A stretch of DNA of 64,000 nucleotides from Sporocytophaga myxococcoides DSM 11118. GTDB taxonomy: Bacteria > Bacteroidota > Bacteroidia > Cytophagales > Cytophagaceae. Positions 24,145 to 46,414 of this stretch are shown piece after piece. Position 1 is the first letter of the stretch, and every line of letters begins with the position of its first letter. Below the pieces are notes generated by a model. It saw only the letters and a list, made by a program, of their open reading frames with translations. It was not told where the DNA came from and searched no databases. Location: the NCBI RefSeq assembly GCF_000426725.1, contig NZ_AUFX01000004.1:62001-126000 (forward strand). Reading direction: 5' to 3'. A program made the translations under genes and the position numbers.

Positions 24145-24328
24145 ATGCTTATTTGATAAATGATAATATCCCCAGGCATTAAAAATGACTTTGGGATTTA
24201 TTTTCAAGAGAAATACACTGAGCAAAACCTAGAAGTAACATTTTTACAGAAAAAATTATGAGACAACTGATCACTCTGTTATAATAGTCAACCTTTTCAT
24301 TGGCCCTTTCCTCAGGAATTGGCCATAC

Positions 24329-24546: not shown

Positions 24547-27500
24547 TTAATATTTCAAGAACTTATATACCTTATTCCGGATTTTAGCAAAGTATACACC
24601 TGGACTTAATTCTTCTCCGAACTCTACTTCTGACGCATCTTTGAAACTATCGAAGATTCTACCCTCCGCATTAGTAATTTCAATGTCTGCAGGTCTATTC
24701 AATCTGATATTTAACTTGCTAGCACTTGGATTTGGGAAAATTGACACAGAATAAACTTTAGTCTGATCATCTAATCCAGTAATAACGCAATCTCCCTTCC
24801 CCAGACCTTCACTCACATAACCAATTTGATCGATATTAGCTAATCCGTCTCCCGTTGTCGATGCTAATGTGACAATGTTAATACCTGCTTCAAGATTGAG
24901 ACTTACGTCTAGTGTTTTGTAAGTTATAAACGCCCCTGTAGCGGGGAAACTAAGCTGACCGATTAAAGTAGTGCCATTCACATTAACCGTAGCTTTACGG
25001 TCCGAAGTACCACCACTTGCATATCTGAAACTTAAAGTCTTTAAACCTACTGATTCGGAATTTATATAGAAGGTTATTTGCGAGCCTATTGCATTAGGCA
25101 CATTGATAAATCCGATACCTTTAAAGCCTGTATTATTGTTATCTACAGTACCATCAAAAGAACAGGCATCAATTTCTGCTTCACCTGCTGATGTACAAGC
25201 TGTTTTGCCAGTCTTTCCGCCAACGCAACGATCACAGTTATCTACGATCGCCGTTCCGTTCATTGTTTTATTGCAATCACATGAATTGATAGTTACAGAT
25301 ACTGTAGAAGCAGTAGAAGCAACCCCACCACTGCTTGTAGAGATGGCTTTCAAAGTTTTAGAACCTGTTGAAGTCGGCAACCATAATACCGAATATGGAC
25401 TTTCAGCATCGGAAGCAATAAGGGTAGAGCCATCATAAAAGTCTACTTTTGATATAGTTCCGCTTGAAACTGACGCTGTAGCTGTAATTGTTACAGAATC
25501 TGACTGACAATAACTCTTACCAGATGCAGGTCCTGTTAAATCTATAGTAGGTGCAGGTGTTGAACAAGTGCCGTCAACATATACTCCAACCTTTCTGGTC
25601 ATTGTACTTCCTGCATTATCTTTTACTGATAGGTTAAAAGAAGCAAAGCCACAAGTAGCAGGTTTAAAGGTAGCAGTTGATCCAGAAATAGTAACTGTAC
25701 CATTTACAACAGACGAAACAGAGTATGCTGGGCTTGTCTTGGAATAGCCCATGAACATGTTTGTAAGATTAATAGGCTGAGTAGCTGTATTGGCAATTAT
25801 ATAATGATATTCTGCCATCCAGTTAAGATAGTCTTCCAGATTGGTAAAGCCATCTTTATCAGGATCCCCATTAGATTCGCTGAAATCGCCTTTAGTTGAA
25901 TTCGGATTAAATCCTTTACCCTTCTCCCAGAAATCAGGCATACCATCACCATCAGTATCCCAGTTAGAAGCTCTTGTTGTTGTAGGATAGCTTTCATATC
26001 CTCCTACATCACTTTCCTTGTCAGGGAACCCTGGCTTTCCGGTTACACTACCTTTGTACTTATAAGTCCCGTTCAAAGTCTCATTAACAATTCTTATATC
26101 ATGTTCATCAAATACAGGCTGAGTATGTCCTACATCTGACAACACACTTTTATAAGCATCAATAGCACTTTGAGTAGTTACATAAGATGAAAAAAAAGGA
26201 GCATTGACATATCCTTCATATTTTTTAGAATCATCATTTGAGTAGGTTTCTCTTCTTCCTTTAGATTGAGTTGATTCATCAAAATAGCCAGGCATCACAT
26301 TTCCGGTAAAATATCCACGTTGTGTTCCTAGCCCAGTTCCTTCGTGGTCCATAGACATGGCTACAAAAATTTTACTTCCTGCCCCCGGTTTATAGTAGTT
26401 TCCAACGAAGTTTACTTCCATAGCCCCACCATCAGTGGTACGTCCACCCCAGTTGTAGACAACGTTATTCGTAATATCAAGCCTTCCTGCATAATAAGCA
26501 TTTCCATCAAGCCCTCCTCCCATACTCCAGTTACGGCCATAGTTATGTGCCAATAGATTATGATGGAAGCTTCCTACATCTCCACCGATTGTACCAGCAT
26601 ATCCGTGCTCGGTACCTGGAGGATAATTCTGGTGGTTTGCTGCATTCAGAGCTTCAGAAATCAAGGTACGTTGTAACGTAATGTTTTTAGCACCGCGAGA
26701 ACTGAATGATTCATCTATAGTCCAGCTTATTGAACAATGATCAAGGATACTATGATTAGCACCTGTTAAACCCATTCCGTCAAAGGTCGGACCAGCGCCA
26801 AGTCTTACCTTCATAAACCGGCCAATGACATCATTTCCTGTAAAACCAAAAGGAGCCTTTCTGATACAGATACCTTTGCCAGGTGCTGTTTGTCCTGCTA
26901 CTGTAACATACGGATCGCTCAGCACAAGACGAGATTCCAGAACAATCATTCCACCTACATCAAACACAATAGTTCTTGGACCTGTTTCATTCTCTACTGC
27001 ATATCTTAAACTTCCTGGATTGTTATCATCTTTCAGATTGGTAACATGCACTACTTTACCCCCTCTACCACCAATTGCAAAGCGTCCATACCCTTCCGCA
27101 CCAGGGAACGCCAGCTGTCTTGGTCGAAATACCCAGACATTACCCTTGATAACAGTTCCTGAACTATTCACTTCGTCAACTCTCCAGTAATAAGTGTTCA
27201 TACTATACAAACCTGTTACATTATAACTGGATCCAGTCTGCTGGCCTTTATAACAAGCCGAGCTGGTAGTTCCGGTTTCAACACAAGTTTTATCAGTGCC
27301 GAAATAAACACGATGAGCTGTTGCACTGGAACCTGCCGTCCATTTCAATGTTGCAGAACCTGTTCCAGCGTCAACGTGCCTTTCCCCATCTGCAGGAACA
27401 GGGCTCTTAGCCTGATCTTTTACATTAGGAGTATTCAGTTCAAAACCATTTATATAAACGTTTTTCATAGAAGCAGAAGAAGATGTTTCTGCTTTATATA

Positions 27501-28050
27501 GCAATACAACATTTTTTCCTGCGGTTGCATTAAAAGTAACATATGAACTTGCCACGGTATTTATTGACACAGCTCTGTTTGAAGGATTAAGATTGTTGAT
27601 TGTCAATGTTCCGTTTACATAAACATCAATCGGGGCGAATGAATTTGATGCAGGATCAGCAAATGAATTATGATAAAGCAACATTGAATGTGTTCCTGTT
27701 GAAAGGCCGCTTATAGTAAGCTCAATCTCTGCTCCAGCATTTCCGCCATCCACAACTACACCATCACAAATAAGACGTGCATAGTTTGGCGTCTGTACAC
27801 CTACTTTATACCAGTCAGCACGCAAAGCAGTACCGTTCATTCCTGTCTTTTTAAATGTAAATGTAACCCCGCTGATGGCTTTGGAAATACTTACAGCATT
27901 GTCAGGAACCCAGGCCACATAATTCGGGTCATTGACTTCTGCATCAGATCGACCACTCATGTTCAGGTCGACTTTGACAACCGGAGTTTGAGCCAACAGA
28001 AGGTGTACGCAACTGGAAGCCAGAATAATTAAGAATAAAAATTTTCTCAT
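24547..28050 (-). CDS. Large secreted pectate lyase with N-terminal binding domain and CBM
   Basis: Secreted PL1-like pectate lyase of 1167 residues. Signal peptide 1-20. A beta-sandwich (about 22-205) opens VVKVDLNMSG and looks like a carbohydrate-binding module. An FN3-like domain (about 215-310) follows. The beta-helix (about 312-720) starts FPGAEGYGRFAIGGRGG and has GQTAPGKGI and HSILDHCSISW. Then come an Ig-like segment, a Big-type Ig domain with SKVDFYDGSTLIASD, one Cys-rich repeat (DCNKTMNGTAIVDNCDRCVGG), a CBM35/CBM6-like domain and a T9SS type-A signal (about 1100-1167). The last three modules are near copies of those on the PL11 lyase. It acts outside the cell on homogalacturonan and complements the PL11 enzyme. 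Confidence 0.9.
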   Translation of the reverse strand: MRKFLFLIILASSCVHLLLAQTPVVKVDLNMSGRSDAEVNDPNYVAWVPDNAVSISKAISGVTFTFKKTGMNGTALRADWYKVGVQTPNYARLICDGVVVDGGNAGAEIELTISGLSTGTHSMLLYHNSFADPASNSFAPIDVYVNGTLTINNLNPSNRAVSINTVASSYVTFNATAGKNVVLLYKAETSSSASMKNVYINGFELNTPNVKDQAKSPVPADGERHVDAGTGSATLKWTAGSSATAHRVYFGTDKTCVETGTTSSACYKGQQTGSSYNVTGLYSMNTYYWRVDEVNSSGTVIKGNVWVFRPRQLAFPGAEGYGRFAIGGRGGKVVHVTNLKDDNNPGSLRYAVENETGPRTIVFDVGGMIVLESRLVLSDPYVTVAGQTAPGKGICIRKAPFGFTGNDVIGRFMKVRLGAGPTFDGMGLTGANHSILDHCSISWTIDESFSSRGAKNITLQRTLISEALNAANHQNYPPGTEHGYAGTIGGDVGSFHHNLLAHNYGRNWSMGGGLDGNAYYAGRLDITNNVVYNWGGRTTDGGAMEVNFVGNYYKPGAGSKIFVAMSMDHEGTGLGTQRGYFTGNVMPGYFDESTQSKGRRETYSNDDSKKYEGYVNAPFFSSYVTTQSAIDAYKSVLSDVGHTQPVFDEHDIRIVNETLNGTYKYKGSVTGKPGFPDKESDVGGYESYPTTTRASNWDTDGDGMPDFWEKGKGFNPNSTKGDFSESNGDPDKDGFTNLEDYLNWMAEYHYIIANTATQPINLTNMFMGYSKTSPAYSVSSVVNGTVTISGSTATFKPATCGFASFNLSVKDNAGSTMTRKVGVYVDGTCSTPAPTIDLTGPASGKSYCQSDSVTITATASVSSGTISKVDFYDGSTLIASDAESPYSVLWLPTSTGSKTLKAISTSSGGVASTASTVSVTINSCDCNKTMNGTAIVDNCDRCVGGKTGKTACTSAGEAEIDACSFDGTVDNNNTGFKGIGFINVPNAIGSQITFYINSESVGLKTLSFRYASGGTSDRKATVNVNGTTLIGQLSFPATGAFITYKTLDVSLNLEAGINIVTLASTTGDGLANIDQIGYVSEGLGKGDCVITGLDDQTKVYSVSIFPNPSASKLNIRLNRPADIEITNAEGRIFDSFKDASEVEFGEELSPGVYFAKIRNKVYKFLKY

Positions 28051-31855: not shown

Positions 31856-32959
31856 TTATCTTGTTATTGTAACAGTCCCATCATCTACACTTCCATCAGA
31901 ATATTCGATTGTAAAAAAATACAAGCCGACTCCCAGATCCTGTCCCATATTACTTTCTCCAGACCATTCTGAAGGTTGATAACTCTGAACCCTGGACTGA
32001 TAAAATACTTTACCACTTTTCTCTATTAATACAAAACTCACAGGATCTTTATCTCTATCATAAGGAACAGACCATGCACGGTCATATTCAGGATTAAAAA
32101 TATAAGCCTTTGAAGTCTTACATATCTGATCTGTAATCACTACATTCTGCGTACTTTCTACAATACAATTTCTGGCATCTTTTATCTTAAGTTTATATGT
32201 TCCGGACGAAAGGCGATCAAAATGAGATAATGATTGCTCCTCATTTAACATAAAAGTATAAGGCTGCTTTCCACCTTTAACAGTTTCAGGATATAGCCGA
32301 ACTTCCCCAGTCTCCTTTCCTTTACAGTTGGGCGTTACAGTAAATTTAACATCACCTTTAAAATCCAGGCAAGGATCTACGGGAGTCAAAACAGGACTAT
32401 TGTTTTTTTTCTGTTCTTCATTAACTACAGAATCTTTAAATGTCAGTCCAGTCTGTGGAATCATCTGTGGCCCATTATCTGTAATTGATTCAGAAGCAGG
32501 CAAGACTTGAGATATAATTAATTTTTCCTCGGAACGACCGCTTATTCTTTCTGCCTTTTTATCAGACTTTAATAAAGGAGCAGCTTCTGTCTCATCTGGC
32601 TGTTTATTATTTACAGATTGATCATGCTTGTAAGACTTATGCACAACAGGAGAACTACTATCTTTGGAGTTTAAATAATAATAATAACCAAATACACCAC
32701 TACCAAGAGTAATTAACAATGCCAGTGCATAAATATTCCAATTAGGTTTGGACTTATATAAGTCCTTACGCATCTGTTCTTTTAATTTTAACGCTTCCTG
32801 TGCAACGACCAATTCCTCTGCAAGCACAGAAAGATTCAGAGCCTTTTGTAATTGCTCATTTGAAGCCAGTTCTTCCTCAAAAGAAGCTCTTTCCTCAACG
32901 CTCATTTTGCCTCTACTATAGAGTTCTACCTTTTCTAATATTTCACTACCTGAGCTCAT
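31856..32959 (-). CDS. Anti-sigma-like membrane protein with SprB-type repeat and type-B CTD-like domain
   Basis: A 367-residue single-pass membrane protein, probably the partner of the ECF sigma factor just upstream. Its start overlaps the end of the sigma gene by 14 bases. The N-terminal 70 residues are acidic and helical (EILEKVELYSRGKMSVEE), like cytoplasmic parts of Bacteroidota anti-sigma factors. One membrane helix spans about 75-95. A Ser/Lys-rich spacer leads to an SprB-type repeat (about 200-285; GGKQPYTFML and LSSGTYKLKIKDARNC). The last 78 residues (about 290-367) resemble the T9SS type-B/CHU_C domain (EWSGESN and GLYFFTIEYSDG...GTVTITR). There is no N-terminal signal peptide, so it should not be exported as T9SS cargo. 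The combination is unusual; anti-sigma function is inferred from topology and position. Confidence 0.8.
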   Translation of the reverse strand: MSSGSEILEKVELYSRGKMSVEERASFEEELASNEQLQKALNLSVLAEELVVAQEALKLKEQMRKDLYKSKPNWNIYALALLITLGSGVFGYYYYLNSKDSSSPVVHKSYKHDQSVNNKQPDETEAAPLLKSDKKAERISGRSEEKLIISQVLPASESITDNGPQMIPQTGLTFKDSVVNEEQKKNNSPVLTPVDPCLDFKGDVKFTVTPNCKGKETGEVRLYPETVKGGKQPYTFMLNEEQSLSHFDRLSSGTYKLKIKDARNCIVESTQNVVITDQICKTSKAYIFNPEYDRAWSVPYDRDKDPVSFVLIEKSGKVFYQSRVQSYQPSEWSGESNMGQDLGVGLYFFTIEYSDGSVDDGTVTITR

Positions 32960-33530
32960 TCTTCAAAAAATTAATCATTGTACCATCATTCTCTACAAGC
33001 TCCATGAGCTTCTGCTTACACCTGTAATGTGTACTCTTAGCCACTGTTTCACCAGCAAAACTCATTTTTTGAGCAACTTCTTTCATGCTCAGATTATCGT
33101 ATATCACATATTTGAGTATCTGTTTGCATTTATCTCCAACTTTACTCATAAACTGCTCTATCAACTCTTCCTTTTCCTTTGTAATGATCACAGCCAGATG
33201 GCTTTCTTCCATAGGAGGCATCTGCATTTTTGAAATATCTAATTGCTTATTTCTCTTTTTAATTCTATTGATCCATAAGTTCCTGGAAACAAAATATAGA
33301 AAGCCATTTATATCTTTTCCCTGTTCAAATTTGCCTAATCTTACCGTAGTAAAAAGTGATACTACTGCATCCTGAAAAATATCTTTTGCTTCATCTTCAT
33401 CTCCATTATTAAGACAGATATATTTCATTATCTGAGGCAAGGCTGATTGATATAAATGGTTAAGGACTCTTGTATTATGACCATTTAGAATGGCCTCAAT
33501 AATTTCCTGATTTTTGTCCTTTTTTAACAT
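32946..33530 (-). CDS. ECF RNA polymerase sigma factor (module A)
   Basis: Sigma-70 factor of the extracytoplasmic-function type. The frame opens at 33569, but the start at 33530 (MLKKDKNQEIIEAI) removes a non-homologous hydrophobic leader and leaves 194 residues. Region 2 is about 25-95, with DEAKDIFQDAVVSLF and the -10-binding helix FLYFVSRNLWINRIKK. Region 4 is about 130-185, with the helix-turn-helix LSMKEVAQKMSFAGETVAKS followed by YRCKQKLMEL. Promoter targets are unknown; the flanking PorP/SprF-like and LamG genes are good candidates. Its paralogue is at 44711-45286. Confidence 0.9.
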   Translation of the reverse strand: MLKKDKNQEIIEAILNGHNTRVLNHLYQSALPQIMKYICLNNGDEDEAKDIFQDAVVSLFTTVRLGKFEQGKDINGFLYFVSRNLWINRIKKRNKQLDISKMQMPPMEESHLAVIITKEKEELIEQFMSKVGDKCKQILKYVIYDNLSMKEVAQKMSFAGETVAKSTHYRCKQKLMELVENDGTMINFLKNELR

Positions 33531-33619
33531 ATTCTTCCTACAAACAAAGAGTTCAAAAAGTAAACACAATTGTCAAATTGTAAAAAACCAACAATTATAC
33601 ATTCATTTTCAGGAAGATA

Positions 33620-34525
33620 TCATTCCCTGGTGATATAGTAATGAAGGTTTAACTCATACTGGTTTGCAACAGGGTATACGTTGGATTGAGGTACGAGGTA
33701 TGTCAGAGAGAAGTCAAAATAATTTTTGTAAAGCTTTATTTTATAAAGGTCAAGAATCAGACCTGAGCCGTTGTCAGTATAATGAAAAGCGCTGACACCT
33801 ACAGTATTGGACAAAACAAAACCACCCTGAAGAATATAGGAGGATGAAATTCCAAGGATCCAGTTACATCGGGCAGCGCCACGAATCTGAGTTTTAGGTC
33901 CCAGGTCGAAAAACTTTTCTCCATACAGGTTTACATATCTGTTGATGAGAAAGCTATAACTAATTGGAGTAACAGTTGGGTTGTTAAAATCATTGAGAGA
34001 AGCACCCAAACGGAAAGTTGGAGAATACAATGTAGTGCTCATATGGGCTGCCCAGGTAAATGAAGATCCTGAAGCACCGGAAGAAGACGCATCAAAATTA
34101 TAGTTGATCATATGCAATGCTACACCTCCGGCTAAGAATAAATTTTCTTTTAAAGGAATATGGACAGCATACCGCAATATCGCTCTTACCTTGTTAAAAT
34201 ATTCTCCTTCCCGATCATTATATATTCCCACTCCGAGTATATGCTTCTTATTTACAGCAACTTCTGTTTCATTCTGGTTCTTGCCCAAATTAACATTTGC
34301 ATCAGCATAATATGTCCTTATCACTGAATATCTGCCAAAATAAGATCTGTAAACAAAATTTGACTGAAAGTCATTGTCTAGACAAACATGAGAAGGTGCA
34401 TGTAATTGAATATTCATCGGAAAGTGCATAAAGGACTCTGAAAAATTGCTTTGTGCAAAAGCATTCAAAGAGCAGAAGCATATGGAAGCCAGCAAAAAAA
34501 GTCCCTTTGTGTACATTTTAAACAC
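33620..34525 (-). CDS. PorP/SprF-like outer-membrane protein (module A)
   Basis: A 301-residue exported protein with a signal peptide (about 1-24) and a beta-barrel-like body of alternating aromatic strands. It opens after processing with SNFSESFMHFPMNIQLHAPS, which corresponds to the family start in which the membrane protein is followed by xxNPAxxG. It ends with a strand (ELNLHYYI). In Flavobacterium johnsoniae, SprF is required for secretion of the type-B cargo SprB, and PorP-like proteins partner such cargo. Here the gene lies 90 bases upstream of the sigma factor and is divergent from a gene for a type-B cargo. The sequence is diverged, so the family call is good but not certain. Confidence 0.72.
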   Translation of the reverse strand: MFKMYTKGLFLLASICFCSLNAFAQSNFSESFMHFPMNIQLHAPSHVCLDNDFQSNFVYRSYFGRYSVIRTYYADANVNLGKNQNETEVAVNKKHILGVGIYNDREGEYFNKVRAILRYAVHIPLKENLFLAGGVALHMINYNFDASSSGASGSSFTWAAHMSTTLYSPTFRLGASLNDFNNPTVTPISYSFLINRYVNLYGEKFFDLGPKTQIRGAARCNWILGISSSYILQGGFVLSNTVGVSAFHYTDNGSGLILDLYKIKLYKNYFDFSLTYLVPQSNVYPVANQYELNLHYYITRE

Positions 34526-34636
34526 AGACCAAAGTCGTGATTTTAGTTTTATTTTTCCGAAATTTCAAAAATACATTTACTTTTTTATTTTTCGTTTGTA
34601 GAGTAAATAATTAAGGAAAATAAAATTTCCAAAAAA

Positions 34637-34659
34637 AAAATCTTCTTTACGAAGATTTT
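34637..34659. promoter_or_regulatory. Hairpin in the leader of the LamG type-B gene
   Basis: A perfect 9-base stem AAAATCTTC / GAAGATTTT with a TTTAC loop, in the divergent promoter region of module A. On the minus strand it is followed by a long T-run (complement of 34631-34640), so it could stop antisense transcripts. On the plus strand it lies 59 bases before the chosen start of the LamG gene and could act in its leader. Confidence 0.5.
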
Positions 34660-34718
34660 ATATTTACATGTTTATGTCGCCAAAGGTTGTTAAACAACCA
34701 GAAAAGCAAGAAAAAATT

Positions 34719-36338
34719 ATGGTTAGGCCCTTCATTTTAATAGTTATATTTTCGTGTCTTTGCTTGATTGCTCAGTCACAAACAGGCCCGGCGGGAGTAG
34801 GCATGAATGATGGCAGTTCATCACTAAAATTATGGCTGGATGGGGGGAATGGAACGTTTTCTGATACTTTAGCAAAAAAAAATTCCAAGCCTGGAGAAAA
34901 GGTTTTATTCTGGAAAGATCTCAGTGGCAGCAATAACCATGTGATGTCTGGAAGTGATTCAACCAATCCGAAATTATCAACCTCTAATCCACTTTTGAAT
35001 AATCAGAGTGGCATTCGTTTTTTTAGAAATGATGGCAAAGGAAACAAAAGAAACTTCCTTGTATCTAAATCATTTTCCAAAACCAATGATATCACGATAT
35101 ACTGTATCTTTCATGCATTGACCAAAGCAGGGGGAAATAATATAAGCCCTGTCAAGGCCATAAACTATGATACTAGTATGTGGTATTTCGGAGCGGGCCT
35201 TGTTGATGGAGGAGCAAACGGATTTACAAACGACATAAGCCTTGCATTCTGCGACACAAGCATAGCAGCAGGTACTGGTGACTCTACTTCTTCTACTGAT
35301 TATTGTGTTAAAGCACCGGCATCTCTAAACAAAACATATTTTGCAGTATTACAAAAAGAAGCATGGACTGGGAAACTAAGAATTGGACATAATACCAATA
35401 CTGATTCTGTTTATCAGGCAGGCACACAACCGATAAATGTTCCATCAAGATATTATATAGGCTCAACCTCCAATGCAAAGGCAAATACTGAACCGTCATT
35501 CTTTGATGGCTACATTGCTTGTGTACTGGTGTATAATAAAATACTTAGCAGTGCCGAAAAAATAATACTAGAGAATTACCTCTCAGCAAAATATAACATT
35601 CCACTTAAAGATAATGACATTTACCAATTTGATGATCCTAATTCCGGCAACTTCGATTTTGAATTGATAGGAATAGGAAAAGCAAATGATGGTACGTCCC
35701 AACTTTCAGCAAGAGGTGATGGTATGGTAGAGCTGCTCAATATTTCAGAATTGAGCAAAGGTGAATTTATGTTTATTGCTCATAATGGAAAAACTTTAGC
35801 TTCGGCAAATGGCAATTTACCTACAGGTGTTCAATTCAGAATGGAGCGCGAATGGATATGTTCTAAAACAGGTAAATCATCAAAGGTTGACCTTATTATA
35901 GATCCTAAAAATATTTCATCAATCAACTTCAAAGATATAAGACTTATAATAGATACAGACAACGACGGTTCTTTTGCGATGGAAAAAATCGGAGAAGGTG
36001 TGATCGAAGTATCAGAGGTAACTCGTGACGGACGCTATGTCTTCAGAGGGGTTGAACTCAAGCATGGAAATCATTTCACATTGGGAAAAGTTAACACTGA
36101 TTCAATAAGCAATAATGAAGATTACTTTTCTCCTAATGGTGACGGGGTCTCAGATATGTATTATATACCATATGCTGGTAAAGCCAACATCTACGATAGA
36201 AATGGGAAACACATCAAAACCCTGACAACACCCGCTTTCTGGGACGGAACCAATGACAGAGGTGAATTATTAACGCCAGGATTATATTTTTTAAATGTTA
36301 ATGAAGATGTTCAAAAAACTGTGACATTGATCAGATGA
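34719..36338 (+). CDS. Secreted LamG-domain protein with T9SS type-B-like end (module A)
   Basis: A large exported surface protein. The frame opens at 34668; Met at 34719 gives a normal signal peptide (MVRPFILIVIFSCLCLIAQSQ), so I use that, leaving 539 residues. The first half (about 30-275) is a concanavalin/LamG-like sandwich with SLKLWLDGGNG, WKDLSGSNNH and FDGYIACVLVYNKILSSAE. A middle beta-domain (about 290-460) follows. The end (about 470-539) carries FSPNGDGVSDMYYIP and WDGTNDRGELLTPGLYFL, the marks of type-B/gliding-motility C-termini. It is divergent from the PorP/SprF-like gene and probably is its cargo. LamG folds often bind sugars or proteins, so an adhesin role is plausible. Confidence 0.82.
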   Translation: MVRPFILIVIFSCLCLIAQSQTGPAGVGMNDGSSSLKLWLDGGNGTFSDTLAKKNSKPGEKVLFWKDLSGSNNHVMSGSDSTNPKLSTSNPLLNNQSGIRFFRNDGKGNKRNFLVSKSFSKTNDITIYCIFHALTKAGGNNISPVKAINYDTSMWYFGAGLVDGGANGFTNDISLAFCDTSIAAGTGDSTSSTDYCVKAPASLNKTYFAVLQKEAWTGKLRIGHNTNTDSVYQAGTQPINVPSRYYIGSTSNAKANTEPSFFDGYIACVLVYNKILSSAEKIILENYLSAKYNIPLKDNDIYQFDDPNSGNFDFELIGIGKANDGTSQLSARGDGMVELLNISELSKGEFMFIAHNGKTLASANGNLPTGVQFRMEREWICSKTGKSSKVDLIIDPKNISSINFKDIRLIIDTDNDGSFAMEKIGEGVIEVSEVTRDGRYVFRGVELKHGNHFTLGKVNTDSISNNEDYFSPNGDGVSDMYYIPYAGKANIYDRNGKHIKTLTTPAFWDGTNDRGELLTPGLYFLNVNEDVQKTVTLIR

Positions 36339-36492
36339 TACTATTAGCTTTAATTAAGATTTTATCCTGCTATGGTTATTGATAAACTTTACTATTCCAT
36401 CCACTATTATTGATTTGCTGACGTTTATTGAGGATTCCCACACATGAGCATTGTTATTTAATTTTTTTTCCTAATCAATTTTTTGGTCCATA

Positions 36493-36521
36493 AAAAAAAT
36501 GAGCTGTCCTATCAAGACAGC
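36493..36521 (-). terminator. Intrinsic terminator of the GH16 gene
   Basis: GCTGTC (36503-36508) pairs with GACAGC (36516-36521). On the minus strand the stem is followed by eight T residues. It lies 61 bases past the GH16 stop and also separates it from the convergent LamG gene. Confidence 0.75.
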
Positions 36522-36581
36522 CTTTCTATTTATCTGATTAAAAACCTAAAGCTATTGCTTTTTATAACGGCATATTAAAAC

Positions 36582-37601
36582 CTATTTCTTAATAATCTCA
36601 ACATCCTGCACTTTCATTCCGGGCCCCGTATATTCCAGCTTATTCAATGTTTGATCATTCAACGGTTCTTGAAAATAAACATCAAGCGTCCTAAGGTCAT
36701 AATGTAGCTTTGTCTTGATCGCCCCTTTTCCATCTACCTTAAAATATTTTTTATTAGCATACGGAGCGTAAGTGTTACCGCGGAAAGTGACTTGTAAATG
36801 CTTATCATCAATCTGCTTTACTTCCTGAATTTGTCCCTTCCCTTCAGAACTAGTTTCCTGCGTTTCAGTTGTCATTACAGGAGCTGCTTCCTTGGAGAGA
36901 CTTAAGATGAGTTTACCATTTTTGAACTTTATATTATCACTGGTAAAATCTACTTTATTACCATCAAAGGTATGTGACGCGGCAGACCATCTTTCCGTAT
37001 TCCAGAAATTGAAGTCGTCCGTCCACTTCAGTTTAAAGGTATTATCTTTCTTATACTCATAATATTTAACATAGTCGTATTGCACATCCCTTGGCAATAT
37101 AGAATCATTCCACGGGCCCGTCCAGTCATAAAACTCGGAAATCCATAAATTCATCATTATTTTCTGAGGCTTATCCATCCTGGCAATATGCTCTCCAGTC
37201 TGTCTGTGCACTTCCTGACCATCTACGCTCCAAGCGATATATTCAGGAGTCCAGTCAAAAGTATAAGTGTGAAATTCTTCATGAGGGTTAAAGGCCAGTA
37301 CCTGCCTGTGTTCATGCATTTTATGCCGGCCTTCTATCACATTAAACTGTGCTTCATTGTTGTATCGTCCAAGTATTTCTATATCTATTTCGTTCCAGTT
37401 GGTAACAAAATCAGGACTATCATAAAAAGTGAAAAGAGAACTGACTATACCACTTCCAGCTGCAGATTTCATGCTTACTTCGAAGCGACCATATAAATAG
37501 GATTCATTGGTCCTTAATTCTGCTCCTTTATAATCTTTTGCTTTTATTAAAATTGGAGTAAATAGTAAAAGAAGAAATACTGATAGAACTATTTTTTTCA
37601 T
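36582..37601 (-). CDS. Circularly permuted GH16 beta-glucanase (lichenase type)
   Basis: Exported 339-residue glucanase cleaving mixed-linkage beta-1,3-1,4-glucan or laminarin-like chains. Signal peptide 1-21. The catalytic part comes first: KGAELRTNESYLYGRFEVSM, then NEIDIEILG with nucleophile E71 and acid/base E75, then HTYTFDWTPEYIAWSVDGQ. The strands that start ordinary Bacillus lichenases come after it, at about 190-238 (LKWTDDFNFWNTERW...FDGNKVDF...GKLILSL). This order is the natural circular permutation known from the Fibrobacter succinogenes 1,3-1,4-glucanase. The last 85 residues (about 255-339) form an extra beta-rich domain I do not recognise. There is no T9SS signal, unlike most enzymes here. 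It stands alone with its own terminator. Confidence 0.9.
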   Translation of the reverse strand: MKKIVLSVFLLLLFTPILIKAKDYKGAELRTNESYLYGRFEVSMKSAAGSGIVSSLFTFYDSPDFVTNWNEIDIEILGRYNNEAQFNVIEGRHKMHEHRQVLAFNPHEEFHTYTFDWTPEYIAWSVDGQEVHRQTGEHIARMDKPQKIMMNLWISEFYDWTGPWNDSILPRDVQYDYVKYYEYKKDNTFKLKWTDDFNFWNTERWSAASHTFDGNKVDFTSDNIKFKNGKLILSLSKEAAPVMTTETQETSSEGKGQIQEVKQIDDKHLQVTFRGNTYAPYANKKYFKVDGKGAIKTKLHYDLRTLDVYFQEPLNDQTLNKLEYTGPGMKVQDVEIIKK

Positions 37602-37724
37602 CGATTACACGTTTGGATATTTTCCCTTACACTGATTAAGGAGAAATGGTTACCTATAAATGGGAATAGCCTGTAACATTTACAGGCTGTTTGCATAAAT
37701 TTATGAATTTTATCTGAGAAAATC

Positions 37725-37982
37725 TTAAGCAGAAACAAACTCCTTGGCTTTTCTAAGGAAACCAGATCTTGTTTTTACTTTCTGTATAGATTTGGCGAAA
37801 CTGTCGTAATTAACTACAAATTTAATCCAATTATAGAAATCATTTTTTTCTTTATTTACATGGTAGAGAAAGGTTTCCTCACTCATTTCTTTCAAGCCTC
37901 TATAAAGCTCTTCTATACTGGTGAATACCTTTCCATCATTGGAATAAAAGAATTTGTCAGGTGTCAGTTGTTGTAAAGACAT
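37725..37982 (-). CDS. Small DUF5752-like protein
   Basis: An 85-residue cytoplasmic protein. The pattern FFYSNDGKVFTSIEELYRG, then MSEETFLYHVNKEKNDFYNW, resembles DUF5752-type proteins, which place a small globular domain around HVN and NDFxNW motifs. Function unknown. It lies alone between the GH16 and GH10 genes. A hairpin AGCCTGTA / TACAGGCT (37668-37688) downstream lacks a T-run and is only a weak terminator candidate. Confidence 0.7.
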   Translation of the reverse strand: MSLQQLTPDKFFYSNDGKVFTSIEELYRGLKEMSEETFLYHVNKEKNDFYNWIKFVVNYDSFAKSIQKVKTRSGFLRKAKEFVSA

Positions 37983-38336
37983 TTCTATTAAAGAGTTATG
38001 ATTCGTTAATACATATAAAATGATTTTAGCAACGACATAGTTCCCTTCACTTTAGGTCCTAGGGAGAAATAAAAAAATTGCCTTTGTTCTTACAGACAAA
38101 AACTATAGGCGTATTAATCCTTCTGAATAAATAGTTTCCCCAATCCGCCTTACGAAATCTCATGTGATTTAAAAGTTGAAATTGCTAAAAAGTGCCCTGG
38201 GAGATTTTATTTCAAAGTTTCCCAACAAAGGAACATAACTCTTCAGCAGCCAATACGATGTAACGAAATAAAAAAAGGGATCATCAGCAACGCTGAATGA
38301 CCCCTAAAAAAAACAACAACTTAAAAAAACAACTAT
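37983..38336. other. Intergenic interval with a terminator
   Basis: About 350 bases between the GH10 and DUF5752-like genes. Apart from the terminator at 38271-38304, and the promoter that the downstream gene must have, nothing is recognised. Confidence 0.5.
38271..38304 (-). terminator. Intrinsic terminator of the second GH10 gene
   Basis: GGGATCATCAGC (38277-38288) pairs with GCTGAATGACCCC (38292-38304) with minor bulges. On the minus strand a T-run follows. It lies 33 bases past the GH10 stop. Confidence 0.8.
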
Positions 38337-41300: not shown

Positions 41301-41666
41301 GGTAATTACCACACCTACTGAAGTAAATGTAACGCCTTTGCTATTTGTAGCTTTTGCTTTAATAGTATAAGTACCCGCGGGAACACATCCCCAGACATAC
41401 TTATAAGTATAGTTGGTATGAGTAGTAGCTTCTCCTAAAAGTGTGGTACCATTATAAAATTCAACTTTTGTAACCGTTCCATTATTAGCAGATTTACCGA
41501 TATCTGTAGAATAAACGTGGATCTCCACATCAGTACCTGCCTTAAAATAAGCATTGCTATGAGGCATTGTGATGGAACATGATGGAGGATAGTTTAGCGT
41601 TTGCCCCTGAAGAAACGTAAAGATCCCCTGCAGGAAGATAAGAATAAGTAAACCTTTTCCCTTCAT
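38337..41666 (-). CDS. GH10 endo-xylanase with CBM4_9, Ig-like repeats and T9SS signal
   Basis: Secreted endo-beta-1,4-xylanase of 1109 residues. Signal peptide 1-22; Ig-like about 27-124; GH10 barrel about 130-432, with acid/base E247 (DVINEQL) and nucleophile E358 (FVTELD); Big-type Ig about 450-545; CBM4_9 about 548-692 (begins LITNGEFDQSTSGW); three Ig/PKD-like domains about 695-925, two with VVLNANxGT strands; Big-type Ig about 930-1022; T9SS type-A signal about 1035-1109. The first 430 residues are closely similar to the xylanase at the left edge of the window. Here, however, the CBM6 pair is replaced by a CBM4_9 and Ig stack. The two enzymes probably bind different wall regions while cutting the same bond. 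Confidence 0.93.
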   Translation of the reverse strand: MKGKGLLILIFLQGIFTFLQGQTLNYPPSCSITMPHSNAYFKAGTDVEIHVYSTDIGKSANNGTVTKVEFYNGTTLLGEATTHTNYTYKYVWGCVPAGTYTIKAKATNSKGVTFTSVGVVITVGTANVTQRGMSACKGKYLANIIPGAPQVNYNNYWNGVTAENNCKWGPVEGTRDQFNWNGADVCYNHAKNNNMMFRYHALMWASQYPAWFKNITSTTEAREEALEYMTAVAQRFPLSDQVDVINEQLSGHQADNPIFANLLGGTGSTGYDWQIWVFTQARALFPNTKLILNDYGLENNTSAINSMLGLAKALRDRGLIDGFGTQAHCFNVDQTSATQLKSAVDLMATGGVPVFVTELDLNGGVESESNNTQQETSYKTHFPVYWDHPAVAGITIWGYISGATWKTGTGLMSSSGTEKPAFTWLKNYVSGKTSVGYPACATGACTSNGELPKVELTGPANNATFKVGANIALTATASDKDGNITKVEFFNGSTKLGEDATSPYSYDWSSVAEGNYKITAVATDNSGNKVTSAEISITVGNPRTQLITNGEFDQSTSGWEIQNNSSASGTMNVITNGNMSGTNSLKICPATPGTEEWHVQVRQATPLIEGKNYKVSFIAKADAARTMTVSIQHDADPYTTYFSKTVDLTTTSQLYSYEFNATTTDDIAKLKFYIGKNSTCVVIDKVEVSEGNFQLVAEVTASGSSTVCEGSSVVLNANTGTDYTYLWKKDGEAINTATSASYTATQSGSYTVTITASGQSATSDAIEVKVNATPSLPSVTSPVLYCQNASAIALIANGAALKWYAGSSNGTGVGTAPVPVTGVTGTTNYYVSQTVNGCESPRALIAVTVKSLPLASISAVGSTTVVEGNSVVLNANSGTGLSYKWFKDNIQVGTNASYTATSSGSYSVEVSNDAGCKATSTPTAVTVNPNQPSVITINAPVSNENIIGDVVTYDVKAEDPDGTITKVEYYLDGKLVGSSSSSPYVFEYKNASPGNHEVLIKVTDSNGGVTTSSPIKLSVSVTTGVFSGGYKVFTGIVPNPSNESFKITSNMAIKQLRITNIYGAEVEVLNEIPADQTSNVGFDLKGGTYLMTIEYVAGSIEVLKLVKLQ

Positions 41667-41928
41667 ATAAGATTTATTTCAAGTTGAGTATTGAACGAAG
41701 CATTTGTAATTCCATTTAAGACAATCAATTATTGCAATTACTCTATGCTGAAAGAAAAGACAAAAATTCTGAATGTATTTTATGGAACTGATACATCTAC
41801 ACTGCAATCAAAAAAAGGTAAACTGAAAAGGTTTTATCTTATCAAAAAATTATCCTATTCTTATTAGTAGTAGTCTGAAGTAAATACCTAATAATGAAAA
41901 GATGGTATAAAAAAAAGAGGTGTAGGTT

Positions 41929-43560
41929 TTAACGAACAACCGTTATATTGGTAAGTTTCTTATTGTCTATTGTTATAACATAATATCCGGTTGTTACCAT
42001 CTCACCTCCGGAACCAGTGCCATCCCAAGTTGCAGGAGCAAGGAACTCTCGGATGACATTTCCATTCATATCGAGTATTCTCGCAACCCCTGGTTTATCG
42101 ATAAAATATGAACTTTGTTGCCCTCCTTCAAGTGGAGATATTACCGGATCGCAATCAGATGCTCTGTAAATGGTAAGCTGGGTATCGAGTAATATCCTGC
42201 AACCCCTCTGATCTTTCAGACGGAGCATGTAATTACCAGCAGGAATATTTGTAAAAATACCAGAAGCACTCTGAATTGTATCGCTTGTCCCGGCAATATT
42301 CAAAGAGTATGTAATAGGTGGTTGTGAGCCTTCTGTTGATACTTCAACTTTAAAGCCCGTACCTTCTTTGCAGTCCTGACTTAAAATTTTATATCCATAT
42401 GAATTTATGTCCATACAGGAATTGTCAACATTAATTCTCCATGTTCTGTGCTGAAGAGTTAATGATGGTAATGCTGGGTTGGTAATTTCTGCCCTATAGT
42501 TACCGGCATCTGAAGGTTTTGCTTTGCTGATATTAAATCCAGACAAAGTCTCAGAACCTATCAAATTATTATTCTTATACCATGCATATTGATTACCACT
42601 TATCCCTGCATCTTCTTGCACAGAAAAATTTATTGGCTCAAGAAGCCTAACTGTCCTTTCCACATTTTCACCAATAGAATCCTGAGGAGCATAATCAAAA
42701 TTCGATAATCCTGTTAATTGAGTTAGTGGTAACAGATCTTCGAATGTCAATTTGTTATTAATAACAGATAGCTTTCTCAAAGATGTTTTATTAGAAAAGT
42801 TTGGAAGGGAGGTCAGCAAATTGTCCTCTGCATACAGTTCTTCAAGAGTAGTATTGTTGTTTAAATTGGAAAGATCTGTAATTTGATTTCCCCAGCAATA
42901 AATAATCTTCAAGCCTGGTAACTTTTCAACACCATTAAGATCCTTAAGTCTATTACGATCACAATGCAACTCATTCAATTTAGGATTCTTCGAAAAATCC
43001 GGAAGACTGTCAAACCTGTTCACTCCAAACTGAAGATTTTCAAGTGCTGTAAGATATTGAAGACCTGAAATCCACGAGAGCTGATTTCCTGACAGAAAAA
43101 GTTTCTGAAGTTTTGTAGCTCCCGGCATTTCCGGGAAAGATGTAAGATTGTTATAAAACAGCTGAATCTGTAATATGTTGGTATTATTTACTACAAAATT
43201 GGCATTGGTCAATTGATTGTAGTTCAGGAACAGATATTGCAGATTGGTGATCGCTGAAAGGTTTGGTACTGTCTTTATCTTATTCATGGAAGCATCAATC
43301 TTAAACACAGATTTAAAATTCTCTATGCCTGTAAGATCAGAGATGTTCGCATTGGTAATAATCAGATCAAAGAAGAAATTATTTGCAGCGGGAATATTCA
43401 GCTTGTCTCCTGTCATCACACCAGGATACCTAGACAACAATACATTCCGAAAATTAGTATCAGGCAGAGTAAAAGTCTGACAATAGGCTTTATTCTCTGA
43501 AAGTATCAGAGTCAAAGTTATGCCTATTAGCTTTAAAAGATTTTTAAAAATTCTGCTCAT
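41929..43560 (-). CDS. Secreted leucine-rich-repeat protein with SprB-like repeat and type-B-like end (module B)
   Basis: A 543-residue exported protein. Signal peptide about 1-27. About ten 22-residue leucine-rich repeats (about 50-275) of the internalin kind, e.g. LQYLFLNYNQLTNANF and LEELYAEDNLLTSLPNF. They are followed by an Ig-like domain (about 285-370), an SprB-like repeat (about 385-450; LNIAGTSDTIQSASG, then IPAGNYMLRLKDQRGC) and a short type-B-like end (about 470-543; WDGTGSGGEMVTTGYYVI). It starts at the last base of the anti-sigma-like stop (TAATG), so translation is coupled. The LRR part probably binds a surface or partner ligand. It is the likely T9SS cargo of module B, with the PorP/SprF-like protein at 45530-46414 as candidate partner. 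Confidence 0.85.
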   Translation of the reverse strand: MSRIFKNLLKLIGITLTLILSENKAYCQTFTLPDTNFRNVLLSRYPGVMTGDKLNIPAANNFFFDLIITNANISDLTGIENFKSVFKIDASMNKIKTVPNLSAITNLQYLFLNYNQLTNANFVVNNTNILQIQLFYNNLTSFPEMPGATKLQKLFLSGNQLSWISGLQYLTALENLQFGVNRFDSLPDFSKNPKLNELHCDRNRLKDLNGVEKLPGLKIIYCWGNQITDLSNLNNNTTLEELYAEDNLLTSLPNFSNKTSLRKLSVINNKLTFEDLLPLTQLTGLSNFDYAPQDSIGENVERTVRLLEPINFSVQEDAGISGNQYAWYKNNNLIGSETLSGFNISKAKPSDAGNYRAEITNPALPSLTLQHRTWRINVDNSCMDINSYGYKILSQDCKEGTGFKVEVSTEGSQPPITYSLNIAGTSDTIQSASGIFTNIPAGNYMLRLKDQRGCRILLDTQLTIYRASDCDPVISPLEGGQQSSYFIDKPGVARILDMNGNVIREFLAPATWDGTGSGGEMVTTGYYVITIDNKKLTNITVVR

Positions 43561-44714
43561 TACCTGATCACCGTTATCTGACCATTCTCCTTTTTACCAT
43601 TGGTATATTCAACGACATAAACATAAAACCCAGTTTCTACCATTGAACCGGCATTACTAATACCAGACCATTCGTAGATTCCTGACAATAAGGAAGATTT
43701 AAATATTAATTGTCCGGCTTGGTTATATATGCTAAGATAATAACTATTCCTGTCATTCCCATTAAACGCCCATGTCTCTCCTTGAGTAGGCGAGAAAGAA
43801 ACACCCGTAGGCTGACAATTTTTTTCTAACAGCTTAACGTTCCATTTACCCAGGCAACCATTAACGTCAGTAATCTTGAGCGTGTAATTACCTGAATATA
43901 AGTGATCCAGATCTGAAGGATCAACTTTCTGACTTCCGGAATAAAGATCTATTCTATAAGGTTCTTCTCCTCCCTGAATCAGGTTTTCATCAATTTCGAT
44001 CTTTCCGTCATTTCTTGCCTGGCAAGCTTCTGATATAGTCCATCTTGCTTTAATCACTGCTTTTGCACAAGGATCAGCATTTAATTCAGACTTATCAGAT
44101 ATAGTTGAAACAGGCTCTTTAACTTCCTTGTTGGTCTCATTAATGGTGGTAGGTTGATAAGGTAATACGAAAGTATCCGCGGAAACTCTGCTTAATGACT
44201 CTGCATTATCTTGTATTTCAACACCATTATCATCATTGATATTTTTTGAAGATTTCTTTGGATTGGTAACTCTAGATGCCGATTGATCTTGTTCAAATGC
44301 AGTAGCATTGTTCTCCGCCTCAGTCAGTTTCAGAGAAGGGATATTGTCAGTATTAACCAATTCCTGATTATCATTTTTTGACAATCCAGAACTCTCTTTA
44401 TCATTGTCTTTCAGCAGAAAATAACCTCCCGCAATAGATAACAAACCAGCAATCAATATTACACTAATGGTTCTATTAAAACCTTTACTGCTGCTACCTT
44501 TATCAATATTGGCAATATCTGAAGACATCTGATTCCGAAGCTCGTGGTATGCATTCACAGATATCAGTTCATTTACTTCACTCTGAAAAGCAACATCTTC
44601 GGCAAGACCCGGATCATCAGAGAGATTTTTGGTAAAATCTTCAAGCTCTTCCCCGGCAAGTTCCCCACGCAGATAGCGATCTATCAAATGATATTTTTCC
44701 TGTTCAGTGCTCAA
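43560..44714 (-). CDS. Anti-sigma-like membrane protein with SprB-type repeat and type-B CTD-like domain (module B)
   Basis: A 384-residue paralogue of the protein at 31856-32959. The cytoplasmic N-terminus (LIDRYLRGELAGEELEDF) is the usual start of Bacteroidota anti-sigma factors. One membrane helix lies at about 82-101. A Ser/Asn/Glu-rich spacer leads to an SprB-type repeat (about 217-305; GGEEPYRIDLYSG and LYSGNYTLKITDVNGC). The end (about 306-384) resembles a type-B sorting domain (EWSGISN and GFYVYVVEYTNG...GQITVIR). The first codon is TTG, sharing TTGA with the sigma stop, so it should be translated by coupling. No signal peptide is present. The periplasmic half mirrors the C-terminal half of the LRR protein encoded next. 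Function as anti-sigma factor is inferred. Confidence 0.8.
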   Translation of the reverse strand: MSTEQEKYHLIDRYLRGELAGEELEDFTKNLSDDPGLAEDVAFQSEVNELISVNAYHELRNQMSSDIANIDKGSSSKGFNRTISVILIAGLLSIAGGYFLLKDNDKESSGLSKNDNQELVNTDNIPSLKLTEAENNATAFEQDQSASRVTNPKKSSKNINDDNGVEIQDNAESLSRVSADTFVLPYQPTTINETNKEVKEPVSTISDKSELNADPCAKAVIKARWTISEACQARNDGKIEIDENLIQGGEEPYRIDLYSGSQKVDPSDLDHLYSGNYTLKITDVNGCLGKWNVKLLEKNCQPTGVSFSPTQGETWAFNGNDRNSYYLSIYNQAGQLIFKSSLLSGIYEWSGISNAGSMVETGFYVYVVEYTNGKKENGQITVIR

Positions 44715-45286
44715 TTTCTAAGAAGATTTTCCAGTAACTTATTTCCTTTAATCAAATTTATAAGTGATTGCTTGCATCGATAATGGCTGGCCTTTGCCAC
44801 TTGCTCATTATTATACCCCAGCTTTTCACTTATCTCTTTCATAGACAACCCTTCATGATTGTAATAATGAAGGAGCTCTCTGCATTTTTCATTTAACTGT
44901 CCGAACAACTTACTGACAGCCGCAGATCGCTCTTTTGTAATGAGATCAGAGAGAGAATCTTTCCCTGATTCTGCGACTTCAAAGACAGTCATATCTTCAT
45001 AATTCGAAATCCGTTTCTCATCCCGCAACTTATTCAGCCAAAGGTTTTTTGCGACGGTATAAACAAATGCATCAATCGCATGTCTTTCATCAAACTTACC
45101 TTTTCTGACCTGATTAAACAAGATAATTACAGAATCCTGAAATATGTCACTTGCCTGATCCATGTTTCCTCCATGTGTAAGAATATAATGCCTTACTTTC
45201 CGTAAGGTAGTTTCATACAAATAGGATAACACCTGACTGTTTTTGCCAGACTTTATACTTGCTAATATTTCTGGGTCCTTGTTCAA
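44711..45286 (-). CDS. ECF RNA polymerase sigma factor (module B)
   Basis: A 191-residue ECF sigma factor. Region 2 is about 20-95 (DQASDIFQDSVIILFNQVRKG, then FVYTVAKNLWLNKLRDE). Region 4 is about 125-180, with HTH LSMKEISEKLGYNNEQVAKA followed by HYRCKQSLINL. It resembles the module A sigma factor along its whole length, including the odd ASHYRCKQ/STHYRCKQ end of the HTH. It is the first gene of a tightly overlapping sigma, anti-sigma, LRR transcript, and is divergent from the PorP/SprF-like gene 243 bases away. It probably drives some of these genes. Confidence 0.92.
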   Translation of the reverse strand: MNKDPEILASIKSGKNSQVLSYLYETTLRKVRHYILTHGGNMDQASDIFQDSVIILFNQVRKGKFDERHAIDAFVYTVAKNLWLNKLRDEKRISNYEDMTVFEVAESGKDSLSDLITKERSAAVSKLFGQLNEKCRELLHYYNHEGLSMKEISEKLGYNNEQVAKASHYRCKQSLINLIKGNKLLENLLRN

Positions 45287-45529
45287 GATTCGATTGGTAT
45301 TACACTATCAAAAAAGAAAAGTAAACTTTACTTTGCCGCTTTTTTTCCAGACGACTAACCCTGATTTTAAGTTACACGTTATCAACGGAAAAATGGAAAA
45401 GTGTATTTCCTTGCAAAACTTAAAATTTTAGAAGAGGCAAAAAAAATTGATTTATTTTCCTTTATTTTAGGAGTTTTTCGGGACTAAATATTAAGTAAAA
45501 TCTCCCTTCCTCTATAAATTAGATAAAAA

Positions 45530-46414
45530 ATGCAAACTCCAAGACTCATTAGTCTGCTTCTGATTTTGCTTTCTTTATTACCCGGACAGGCTAAATCCCA
45601 GTCCGCGGGAGGATCTTTTCTGACATTTGATCAGTTCTTTCAAAACTACGCAATGTTTAATCCTGCAAGTGAAGACACTTCTGGAAAGTTTAATCTAAGA
45701 ATAGGGAATAGTGCACTTTACGGTTTATTTGAGGGAGTTAACAGAAGATATCTTGATCTTGATTTTAAACCAGGAAACAGGAAGTCACTTTCGTACAGTA
45801 AAATCGGCGCCCTTGTTCAGACGAATAATGACGGTCCATTCATAAAGAGAAGCAGATACTACGGAAGATATTCGAGAACTATAGCGATTGGAAGAGAACA
45901 TTATATTTCACTGGGACTTGCACTTGGTGCAGTATCTCTTACACTTAACGGATCTCAGTCTGTTGGAGGAGGTACTTCTACTGCTTTCGATGGATATGCT
46001 GGTATGTGGTATCATTGGAGAAAATTAAAACTGGGCGCTTCAGTAGAGCAATTCACTCAATCTGTCTTAACCCCCATACAACAGAACTTTAAGCTGGAAC
46101 CTGTGCTAAACCTCAATGGTATATACAATTTTGATATCAGCCCACAAGTATCAATGTATAATCACCTCTATTTCCGCAAAGAATCCGGAAACCCCGGATC
46201 GTTGGAATATGCCCCTGTATTATTGATGGCAGAAGTAATTGAAGCAGGAGCCAATTTCAAATTCAAACGTGGTATTGCAATCTTACTTGGTATTAATGCT
46301 CATACTTTAGACTATGGCACCATTAGTTTTATGGGATCTTTTCTGATAGGCACCAGGCAACTTTCAACTTCAGCTGATAATAAATTTGAAATTACTGCAA
46401 GGTATTCCTTTTAA
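45530..46414 (+). CDS. PorP/SprF-like outer-membrane protein (module B)
   Basis: A 294-residue protein with a signal peptide (1-24). It is followed by LTFDQFFQNYAMFNPASED, the typical opening of the PorP/SprF family (xxxFNPAxxG). The rest is a predicted beta-barrel (about 14 strands) ending FEITARYSF with a terminal Phe. PorP is needed for T9SS in Porphyromonas, and SprF for secretion of SprB in Flavobacterium. Such proteins often pair with one type-B cargo, here probably the LRR protein of the divergent operon. Its start codon and signal peptide agree well. Confidence 0.88.
   Translation: MQTPRLISLLLILLSLLPGQAKSQSAGGSFLTFDQFFQNYAMFNPASEDTSGKFNLRIGNSALYGLFEGVNRRYLDLDFKPGNRKSLSYSKIGALVQTNNDGPFIKRSRYYGRYSRTIAIGREHYISLGLALGAVSLTLNGSQSVGGGTSTAFDGYAGMWYHWRKLKLGASVEQFTQSVLTPIQQNFKLEPVLNLNGIYNFDISPQVSMYNHLYFRKESGNPGSLEYAPVLLMAEVIEAGANFKFKRGIAILLGINAHTLDYGTISFMGSFLIGTRQLSTSADNKFEITARYSF

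Follow-up and report, generated by a model that had tools for sequence, protein, structure and literature searches.

Genes for an ECF sigma factor and an anti-sigma-like membrane protein are coupled in Sporocytophaga myxococcoides DSM 11118 to genes for a PorP/SprF-family shuttle-like protein and for a T9SS cargo protein, and the periplasmic half of the membrane protein is related to the tail of that cargo. The module is repeated, conserved and apparently undescribed, and would constitute an export-linked sigma/anti-sigma circuit with a new sensor; among open-licence papers, no description of it was found by title or by the start of the abstract. We propose, with about even confidence, that the module acts as an export-coupled switch, in which a cargo-mimicking anti-sigma factor, read by a dedicated shuttle or by the translocon, would tie the synthesis of the cargo to its export. 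At the level of sequence comparison, this proposal builds on the composition of the module, the relatedness of the domains, the similarity of the tails within modules, and the coupling of the cargo gene to the sigma operon.

Two modules in the window

The window, that is, the whole stretch of 64,000 nucleotides under analysis, corresponds to bases 62001-126000 of contig C2 of the 6.34-Mb genome. The module extends beyond the sigma/anti-sigma pair at 31856-33530, on which the initial annotation had been focused; the shuttle-like and the cargo genes belong to it too, and a second four-part set is located at 41929-46414. The two sets are referred to as modules A and B (Table 1).

Table 1. Features of modules A and B, in positions of the window
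Feature	Position	Strand	Remarks
Anti-sigma-like membrane protein, module A	31856..32959	(-)	367-aa ORF and domain matches
Predicted parts of the module A anti-sigma protein	residues 1-75; 76-92; ~197-280; ~285-367		cytoplasmic part; helix core; SprB-like domain; type-B-CTD-like domain
ECF sigma factor (predicted), module A	32946..33530	(-)	sigma70-ECF model, 59.6 bits (cut-off 42.9)
Promoter-like dyad, module A sigma	33539..33564 (contig C2:95539-95564)	(-)	TTTACTTTT-N13-TGTA; upstream of the sigma ATG, within the TTG-opened frame
Diverged PorP/SprF-family outer-membrane shuttle-like protein, module A	33620..34525	(-)	PF11751, E=5.6e-12
Promoter-like dyad, module A cargo	34576..34600	(+)	upstream of the cargo gene
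T9SS cargo, module A	34668..36338	(+)	type-B CTD with FSPNGDG; CHU_C, E=1.8e-7
T9SS cargo, module B	41929..43560	(-)	LRRs, Ig-like region, SprB-like domain, type-B-like CTD
Anti-sigma-like protein, module B	43560..44714	(-)	SprB-like and CTD-like domains
ECF sigma factor (predicted), module B	44711..45286	(-)	
Promoter-like dyad, module B sigma	45301..45325	(-)	upstream of the sigma gene; also present in three aligned relatives
PorP/SprF-family protein, module B	45530..46414	(+)	105.8 bits

For the protein encoded at 31856-32959, an anti-sigma-like start, one membrane helix and an SprB-like plus type-B-CTD-like end had been proposed in the initial annotation, and ORF, domain and profile matches agree with this architecture; a signal peptide, which had been said to be missing, is indeed replaced by the internal helix. 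The SprB-like domain holds the four cysteines of the protein (residues 197, 212, 265, and 280) and is separated from the helix by a linker of approximately 105 residues. On their own, the domain matches are weak, namely CHU_C (PF13585) at residues 307-356 (E=8.3e-4, below the gathering cut-off), TIGR04131 at residues 292-367 (E=0.045, below cut-off), and SprB (E=0.018). A PDB sequence search gave no relevant match. An AlphaFold2 model of residues 190-367, for which only three aligned sequences were used, reached a pLDDT of 66, which is too poor for assigning a fold, and Foldseek comparison of this model with the PDB returned nothing at E<=0.001 (best 0.021); the model of the cargo tail (pLDDT 39) was unusable. 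The AlphaFold2 and Foldseek results were counted neither for nor against a type-B-CTD fold.

The partner protein is, by its model score, clearly predicted to be an ECF sigma factor. Its gene overlaps that of the anti-sigma protein by 14 nt, and its frame extends open to a TTG at 33569. The shuttle-like protein of module A has the lowest score among the 30 PorP/SprF matches of the genome. The cargo, the gene of which is divergent from the PorP/SprF gene and transcribed separately, starts with a hydrophobic N-terminal signal and shows a LamG-like match too weak to pass the cut-off (E 0.0067). Approximately 12 kb separate the anti-sigma genes of the two modules (window 31856-46414); by contig coordinates, their counterparts are approximately 13-14 kb apart in G485 (C11) and G522 (C3). 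Elsewhere in the window, a Cys-rich repeat motif of the type DCNGTANGTAYLDECGICVGGTTG was read by eye in large secreted proteins (21148-24225 and 24547-28050).

Distribution and gene content of the modules

A whole-genome search revealed nine full-length anti-sigma paralogues in this genome; in every case, a sigma gene immediately precedes the anti-sigma gene, and a PorP/SprF gene is close by. The PorP/SprF proteins of the nine modules are all over the cut-off, yet they are the nine lowest of the genome's 30; the module shuttles are therefore regarded as a diverged set. When a profile made of the nine paralogues was run on 148 genomes from the order, 17 of these, the present one among them, proved to encode full-length members, which number at least 81, so that the question raised in the initial annotation, whether an ECF sigma factor plus this tail architecture represents a family, can be answered in the affirmative. 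Full length denotes a match from profile position 10 or lower to position 361 or higher of 373; such matches were tallied manually among those listed, and 81 is a lower bound since the best 13 candidates were scored in most genomes. In the family to which Sporocytophaga belongs, 15 of 19 genomes contain a match at E<=1e-25. Among the matches listed for 395 genomes of the phylum, with the best five candidates of each, none outside this genome is full length; among 119 genomes of the class, one from another order (G553) has a full-length member. The locus of a Sporocytophaga MAG (L169) shows 71% identity across the module-B anti-sigma protein. The set analysed below comprises 72 of the 81 members and L169, i.e., 73 modules from 16 genomes and the MAG.

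The sigma gene is found directly upstream of the anti-sigma gene in all 73 loci, overlapping it in 71 (by 4 nt in 45) and lying 3 and 27 nt apart in the others. A PorP/SprF-type ORF is likewise present in 73 of 73 loci; it is divergent from the sigma gene in 69 and no more than 366 nt away from it in 72. Four shuttle ORFs are below 250 aa, owing to contig ends or a broken frame, and PorP_SprF (PF11751) matches 69 of the 71 ORFs scanned, the fragments L116 and L118 lying outside the scan. A cargo was assigned in 66 loci, 58 times directly 3' of the anti-sigma gene (gaps of -20 to +9 nt) and eight times elsewhere. Six cargos devoid of an HMM label were added by eye (L043, L044, L109, L121, L128, and L150), and the assignment in the first module of L120 was taken out as wrong; the motif count on 67 cargos given below predates this removal. 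The N-terminus is hydrophobic in 64 of the 66 cargos, and CHU_C matches 46 of them. Seven loci are without an assigned cargo; three of these are at contig ends (L110, the first module of L120, and L122), two are L141 and L142, and in the remaining two, L146 and L147, no cargo was seen within the stretch examined. In L142 (20-4154) and in L141, PorP is followed by a protein of 966-968 aa with a type-A-like end and then by a module-type CTD ORF, which in L142 encodes 392 aa and is past the distance limit, while its counterpart in L141 is cut at the end of the stretch; neither is included in the 66. In the locus from the other order (L189 in G553), the four genes share a strand and are arranged as PorP, cargo, sigma and anti-sigma.

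In the anti-sigma proteins, a single clear helix is found, with a charge bias that fits an N-in orientation in 58 of the 73, is equal in eight and opposite in seven, and within the first 61 residues no stretch of 17 residues is above a mean hydropathy of 1.15. The NCBIfam antisigma model matches 11 of the 73 proteins; the FecR family gave no match in them (Pfam and NCBIfam, E<=0.01). Gene coupling, single helix and N-in bias fit an ECF sigma/anti-sigma pairing, and it is from these features that we infer an anti-sigma activity. As a control within the genome, PorP and cargo accompany 10 of 10 sigma/anti-sigma pairs with an SprB domain and/or a CTD on the anti-sigma protein, and PorP is found at none of the three other pairs recognised among five further sigma loci (Fisher 0.0035). 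The suggestion made in the initial annotation, that the protein is a cargo-like sensor or decoy, gains from the conserved module and from the tail similarity within modules described below; as to its partners, the genes found in each module favour a dedicated PorP/SprF-like shuttle and a single cargo over PorV or the T9SS at large. A global T9SS regulator of the SigP type was set aside because there are nine dedicated copies.

The same gene content has to be weighed for surface signalling, in which the secreted, shuttle-anchored LRR protein would recognise a ligand outside the cell and the signal would pass through the shuttle to the anti-sigma tail, in the manner of FecA-FecR-FecI but with the TonB-dependent receptor replaced by a T9SS shuttle. 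LRR_4 is found in 55 of the 66 cargos, Ig or lectin-like matches are found in others, and several diverged copies occur per genome (nine here) with an identical parts list, all of which would suit a set of receptors. On the other hand, the nine shuttles align over approximately 290-310 aa (one has 364 by start choice) with no added N-terminal signalling domain apparent, and surface signalling by itself leaves the copying of the tail and the similarity within modules unexplained. It is considered possible but unlikely, and the export-coupled switch is retained as the preferred reading.

Variants and look-alikes

In three genomes of the genus, an anti-sigma protein without CTD is encoded (L046 6314-7054, L198 4755-5495, and L199 5110-5844). 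It has kept the SprB domain behind a linker of 58-59 residues and belongs to an operon-like row sigma-antisigma-cargo-PorP, in which the cargo is strongly type-B and PorP is more typical, scoring in the present genome as a typical one. As this variant keeps SprB domain, cargo and PorP, either the SprB domain alone must suffice in these loci or the circuit differs; the loci offer a natural comparison for the contribution of the CTD. In L200 (4826-5776), a shorter anti-sigma protein with a CTD-like end and without SprB-like domain adjoins an ECF sigma gene; no PorP or cargo was recognised within 11 kb. Both variants weigh against the proposed switch.

Short SprB-CTD proteins from other families of the class were considered as short anti-sigma factors and rejected, being ordinary, signal-peptide-like cargo near PorP. 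Ten loci were examined for them (L176 and L180-L188, with L184 being the same place as L176); in eight, L180-L187, the SprB-CTD combination belongs to a signal-peptide-like protein encoded close to a PorP ORF, with no sigma gene recognised. The tail would thus be a general part of cargo that was borrowed by the anti-sigma protein, which likewise weighs against the switch. L194-L196, L201, and L203 represent a different anti-sigma family without CTD and were also rejected.

Relationship of the anti-sigma tail to the cargo tail

At E<=0.01, CHU_C matches 61 of the 73 anti-sigma proteins (best 1.1e-10), SprB 40, FlgD_ig 45, and, among the NCBIfam models, type-B TIGR04131 31 and type-A TIGR04183 28. 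In profile-profile comparison, the anti-sigma CTD is related to the CTDs of module cargos with a probability of 98.2%, to three canonical type-B CTDs of the same genome with 97.0%, and to 49 type-A-like ends with 95.0%, while the anti-sigma SprB domain is related to that of the cargos with 97.7% (controls 0-37%). These probabilities relate the periplasmic half to the two domains with which the cargo ends. A tree of 63 pairs separates anti-sigma and cargo CTDs in 126 of 126 cases with a support of 0.999; this flawless split suggests one old recruitment of the tail by the anti-sigma protein.

Distances between tails were analysed in 63 of 66 modules, three with short shuttle ORFs being left out. 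The anti-sigma tail resembles that of its own cargo above expectation (p=1e-4 for 63 modules, 4e-4 for 38 representatives), and this holds for permutation only within genomes (p=0.0018, n=61), a result that speaks against an effect of genome composition. The preference is modest, the own cargo having a median rank of 17 of 63 and of 10 of 38, and in G436 it is absent (own ranks 4, 5, 6, 5, 5, 7, and 3 of 7). The distances of anti-sigma CTD and cargo CTD correlate with a partial r of 0.41 when sigma and the remainder of the protein are controlled for; those of the anti-sigma CTD and its own cytoplasmic domain hardly correlate (partial r 0.06, p=0.10, controlled for sigma, cargo CTD and PorP). 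The cytoplasmic domain correlates with the cargo CTD, too (0.25).

An alternative that we regard as improbable is that the CTD-like domain is a reused Ig-type periplasmic sensor fold with no T9SS contact, the cargo linkage reflecting common regulation. The matches to FlgD_ig and TIGR04183 make the CTD similarity a broad one; the motif P[ND]xDG, which is present in 46 of 67 cargos, is found in 0 of 73 anti-sigma proteins; anti-sigma proteins without CTD exist; and the partial correlation with PorP is not specific for the CTD, its value of 0.20 not being above the 0.23 of the cytoplasmic domain. Such a sensor would leave unexplained, however, why a PorP/SprF-type ORF accompanies every locus, why both domains are related to the cargo tail, and why own pairs are similar within genomes. 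More improbable still is that the tail is a true export signal, with the SprB-CTD half being cleaved in the periplasm and secreted by the T9SS so that the anti-sigma factor is removed FlgM-like: the CTD-like domain ends at or within a few residues of the C-terminus in the 73 tails, as in cargo, and a four-cysteine pattern is common to 72 of 73 anti-sigma and 51 of 66 cargo tails, but the missing P[ND]xDG stands against it, and so would the reported need of SprB secretion for each of five conserved CTD motifs (PMC12618676), provided that P[ND]xDG is one of these five.

Promoter-like dyad

A dyad TTAC-N15..17-[CT]GTA came to notice by enumeration, and the regions enumerated, many of them orthologous, were also those in which it was later counted. 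Of the 73 loci, 36 have it within 130 nt upstream of the sigma gene, compared with a mean of 1.2 and a maximum of 5 in 200 sets of block shuffles; these 36 loci are not independent since they include orthologous loci of the genus (G000, G485, G522, and L169). In the direction of PorP, it is found in four of 73 loci (L141, L142, L044, and L148; shuffles: mean 1.4, maximum 6). Where the cargo gene of module-A-type loci is transcribed separately, the dyad precedes it in four of four cases; four other loci with the cargo elsewhere have no dyad upstream of the cargo, and in C3-type loci (L040, L152, and L163) it is absent upstream of both cargo and PorP. From its occurrence at the sigma gene and at separate cargo genes and its rarity toward PorP it would follow that both the sigma operon and the cargo gene are probably driven by the sigma factor, with PorP mostly outside its control.

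Across the genome, the pattern is not enriched, with 24 matches versus 24 in the reversed control and four within modules; no wider regulon is therefore claimed. A match outside modules A and B in the window (7602-7626, minus strand) is probably due to chance as the total equals that of the reversed control. An ECF-like motif that includes a CGT box has been described ahead of T9SS genes and of one sigma/anti-sigma pair in Flavobacterium psychrophilum (PMC9723704). A GTAAC...CGT dyad occurs in only four of the 73 sigma upstream regions.

Proposed export-coupled switch

The distance from the helix core to the first cysteine is bridged by a linker of 91-133 residues (median 105, sd 8), which is rich in K, S, T, E, N, and P. 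At 0.34 nm per residue, a linker of approximately 105 residues would measure approximately 35 nm when fully extended, which is enough to cross a periplasm; its length may serve the reach to the outer membrane. A tethered copy of the cargo tail, sitting on a likely sigma inhibitor and encoded beside a shuttle gene, suggests that the two tails compete for the shuttle and that cargo synthesis is subject to feedback, and from this arrangement we infer tail-shuttle binding, the competition, the direction of the signal and the release step as outlined in the following.

The anti-sigma protein, residing in the inner membrane, would hold the ECF sigma factor in the cytoplasm and, by the flexible tether of approximately 105 residues, would present the SprB-like plus type-B-CTD-like copy of the cargo tail in the periplasm. 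This tail would be recognised by the machinery of the cargo, most likely by the PorP/SprF-like shuttle of the module, alone or at the translocon, but could not leave because it is tethered. The sigma factor would drive its own operon and the cargo gene, and the shuttle gene, mostly under a separate promoter, would set the demand. In the favoured direction, empty shuttles would engage the anti-sigma tail, and the sigma factor would be freed by pulling or by cleavage; once cargo fills the shuttles, the tail would be displaced and the sigma factor held again. This direction is preferred on the reasoning that the set point would then be stable and the shuttle gene would remain an independent input.

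For type-B CTDs, binding and export by cognate PorP/SprF shuttles has been described (PMC12618676, PMC9143113). The main difficulty of the proposed switch is topology. The CTD is positioned by its shuttle at the outer face of the outer membrane, and a tethered tail would reach that face solely through the translocon. More tentatively, and somewhat short of even confidence, a new class of control is conceivable, in which membrane-tethered anti-sigma factors offer a T9SS shuttle, as bait, a copy of the tail that cannot be exported, and the occupancy of each shuttle, perhaps as translocon pull on the tether, determines how much of its own cargo is made, with up to approximately ten such private circuits in parallel per cell.

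Comparison with known systems and biological significance

In FecI-FecR-FecA, an ECF sigma factor, a single-helix anti-sigma factor and a TonB-dependent outer-membrane receptor are encoded together, and the modules resemble this system in the combination of ECF sigma factor, single-helix anti-sigma-like protein and outer-membrane barrel. They differ in that the barrel is of the PorP/SprF family, the periplasmic half is cargo-tail-like, and the anti-sigma proteins have no FecR match. FlgM is a soluble anti-sigma factor, which is exported whole through the flagellar exporter. As with FlgM-FliA, an anti-sigma factor resembling a substrate would tie sigma activity to a secretion machine; unlike FlgM, the anti-sigma protein has a membrane helix.

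To our knowledge, how the making of surface proteins is matched to export in T9SS bacteria is largely an open question. PorXY-SigP controls the T9SS machinery as a whole. Its connection with PorA in Porphyromonas gingivalis, the nearest case among the open-licence papers searched, likewise involves an ECF sigma factor in T9SS regulation, with the CTD-bearing PorA acting upstream (PMC7712824). PorA has a signal sequence, is located on the surface, acts via a two-component system and targets genes of T9SS components; the CTD-like domain of the present modules, in contrast, is part of a membrane-bound anti-sigma protein, and the apparent target is one cargo gene. In Flavobacterium johnsoniae, genes of type-B-CTD cargo are genetically linked to that of the cognate PorP/SprF shuttle, as they are here (PMC12618676), and to such pairs the modules add a sigma factor and an anti-sigma protein carrying a copy of the cargo tail.

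If the proposed mechanism is true, the modules would be dedicated, cargo-specific feedback circuits. Since both tails of a module presumably answer to the same shuttle, the tails of anti-sigma protein and cargo would, moreover, be natural pairs for mapping the recognition by the shuttle apart from the needs of export.
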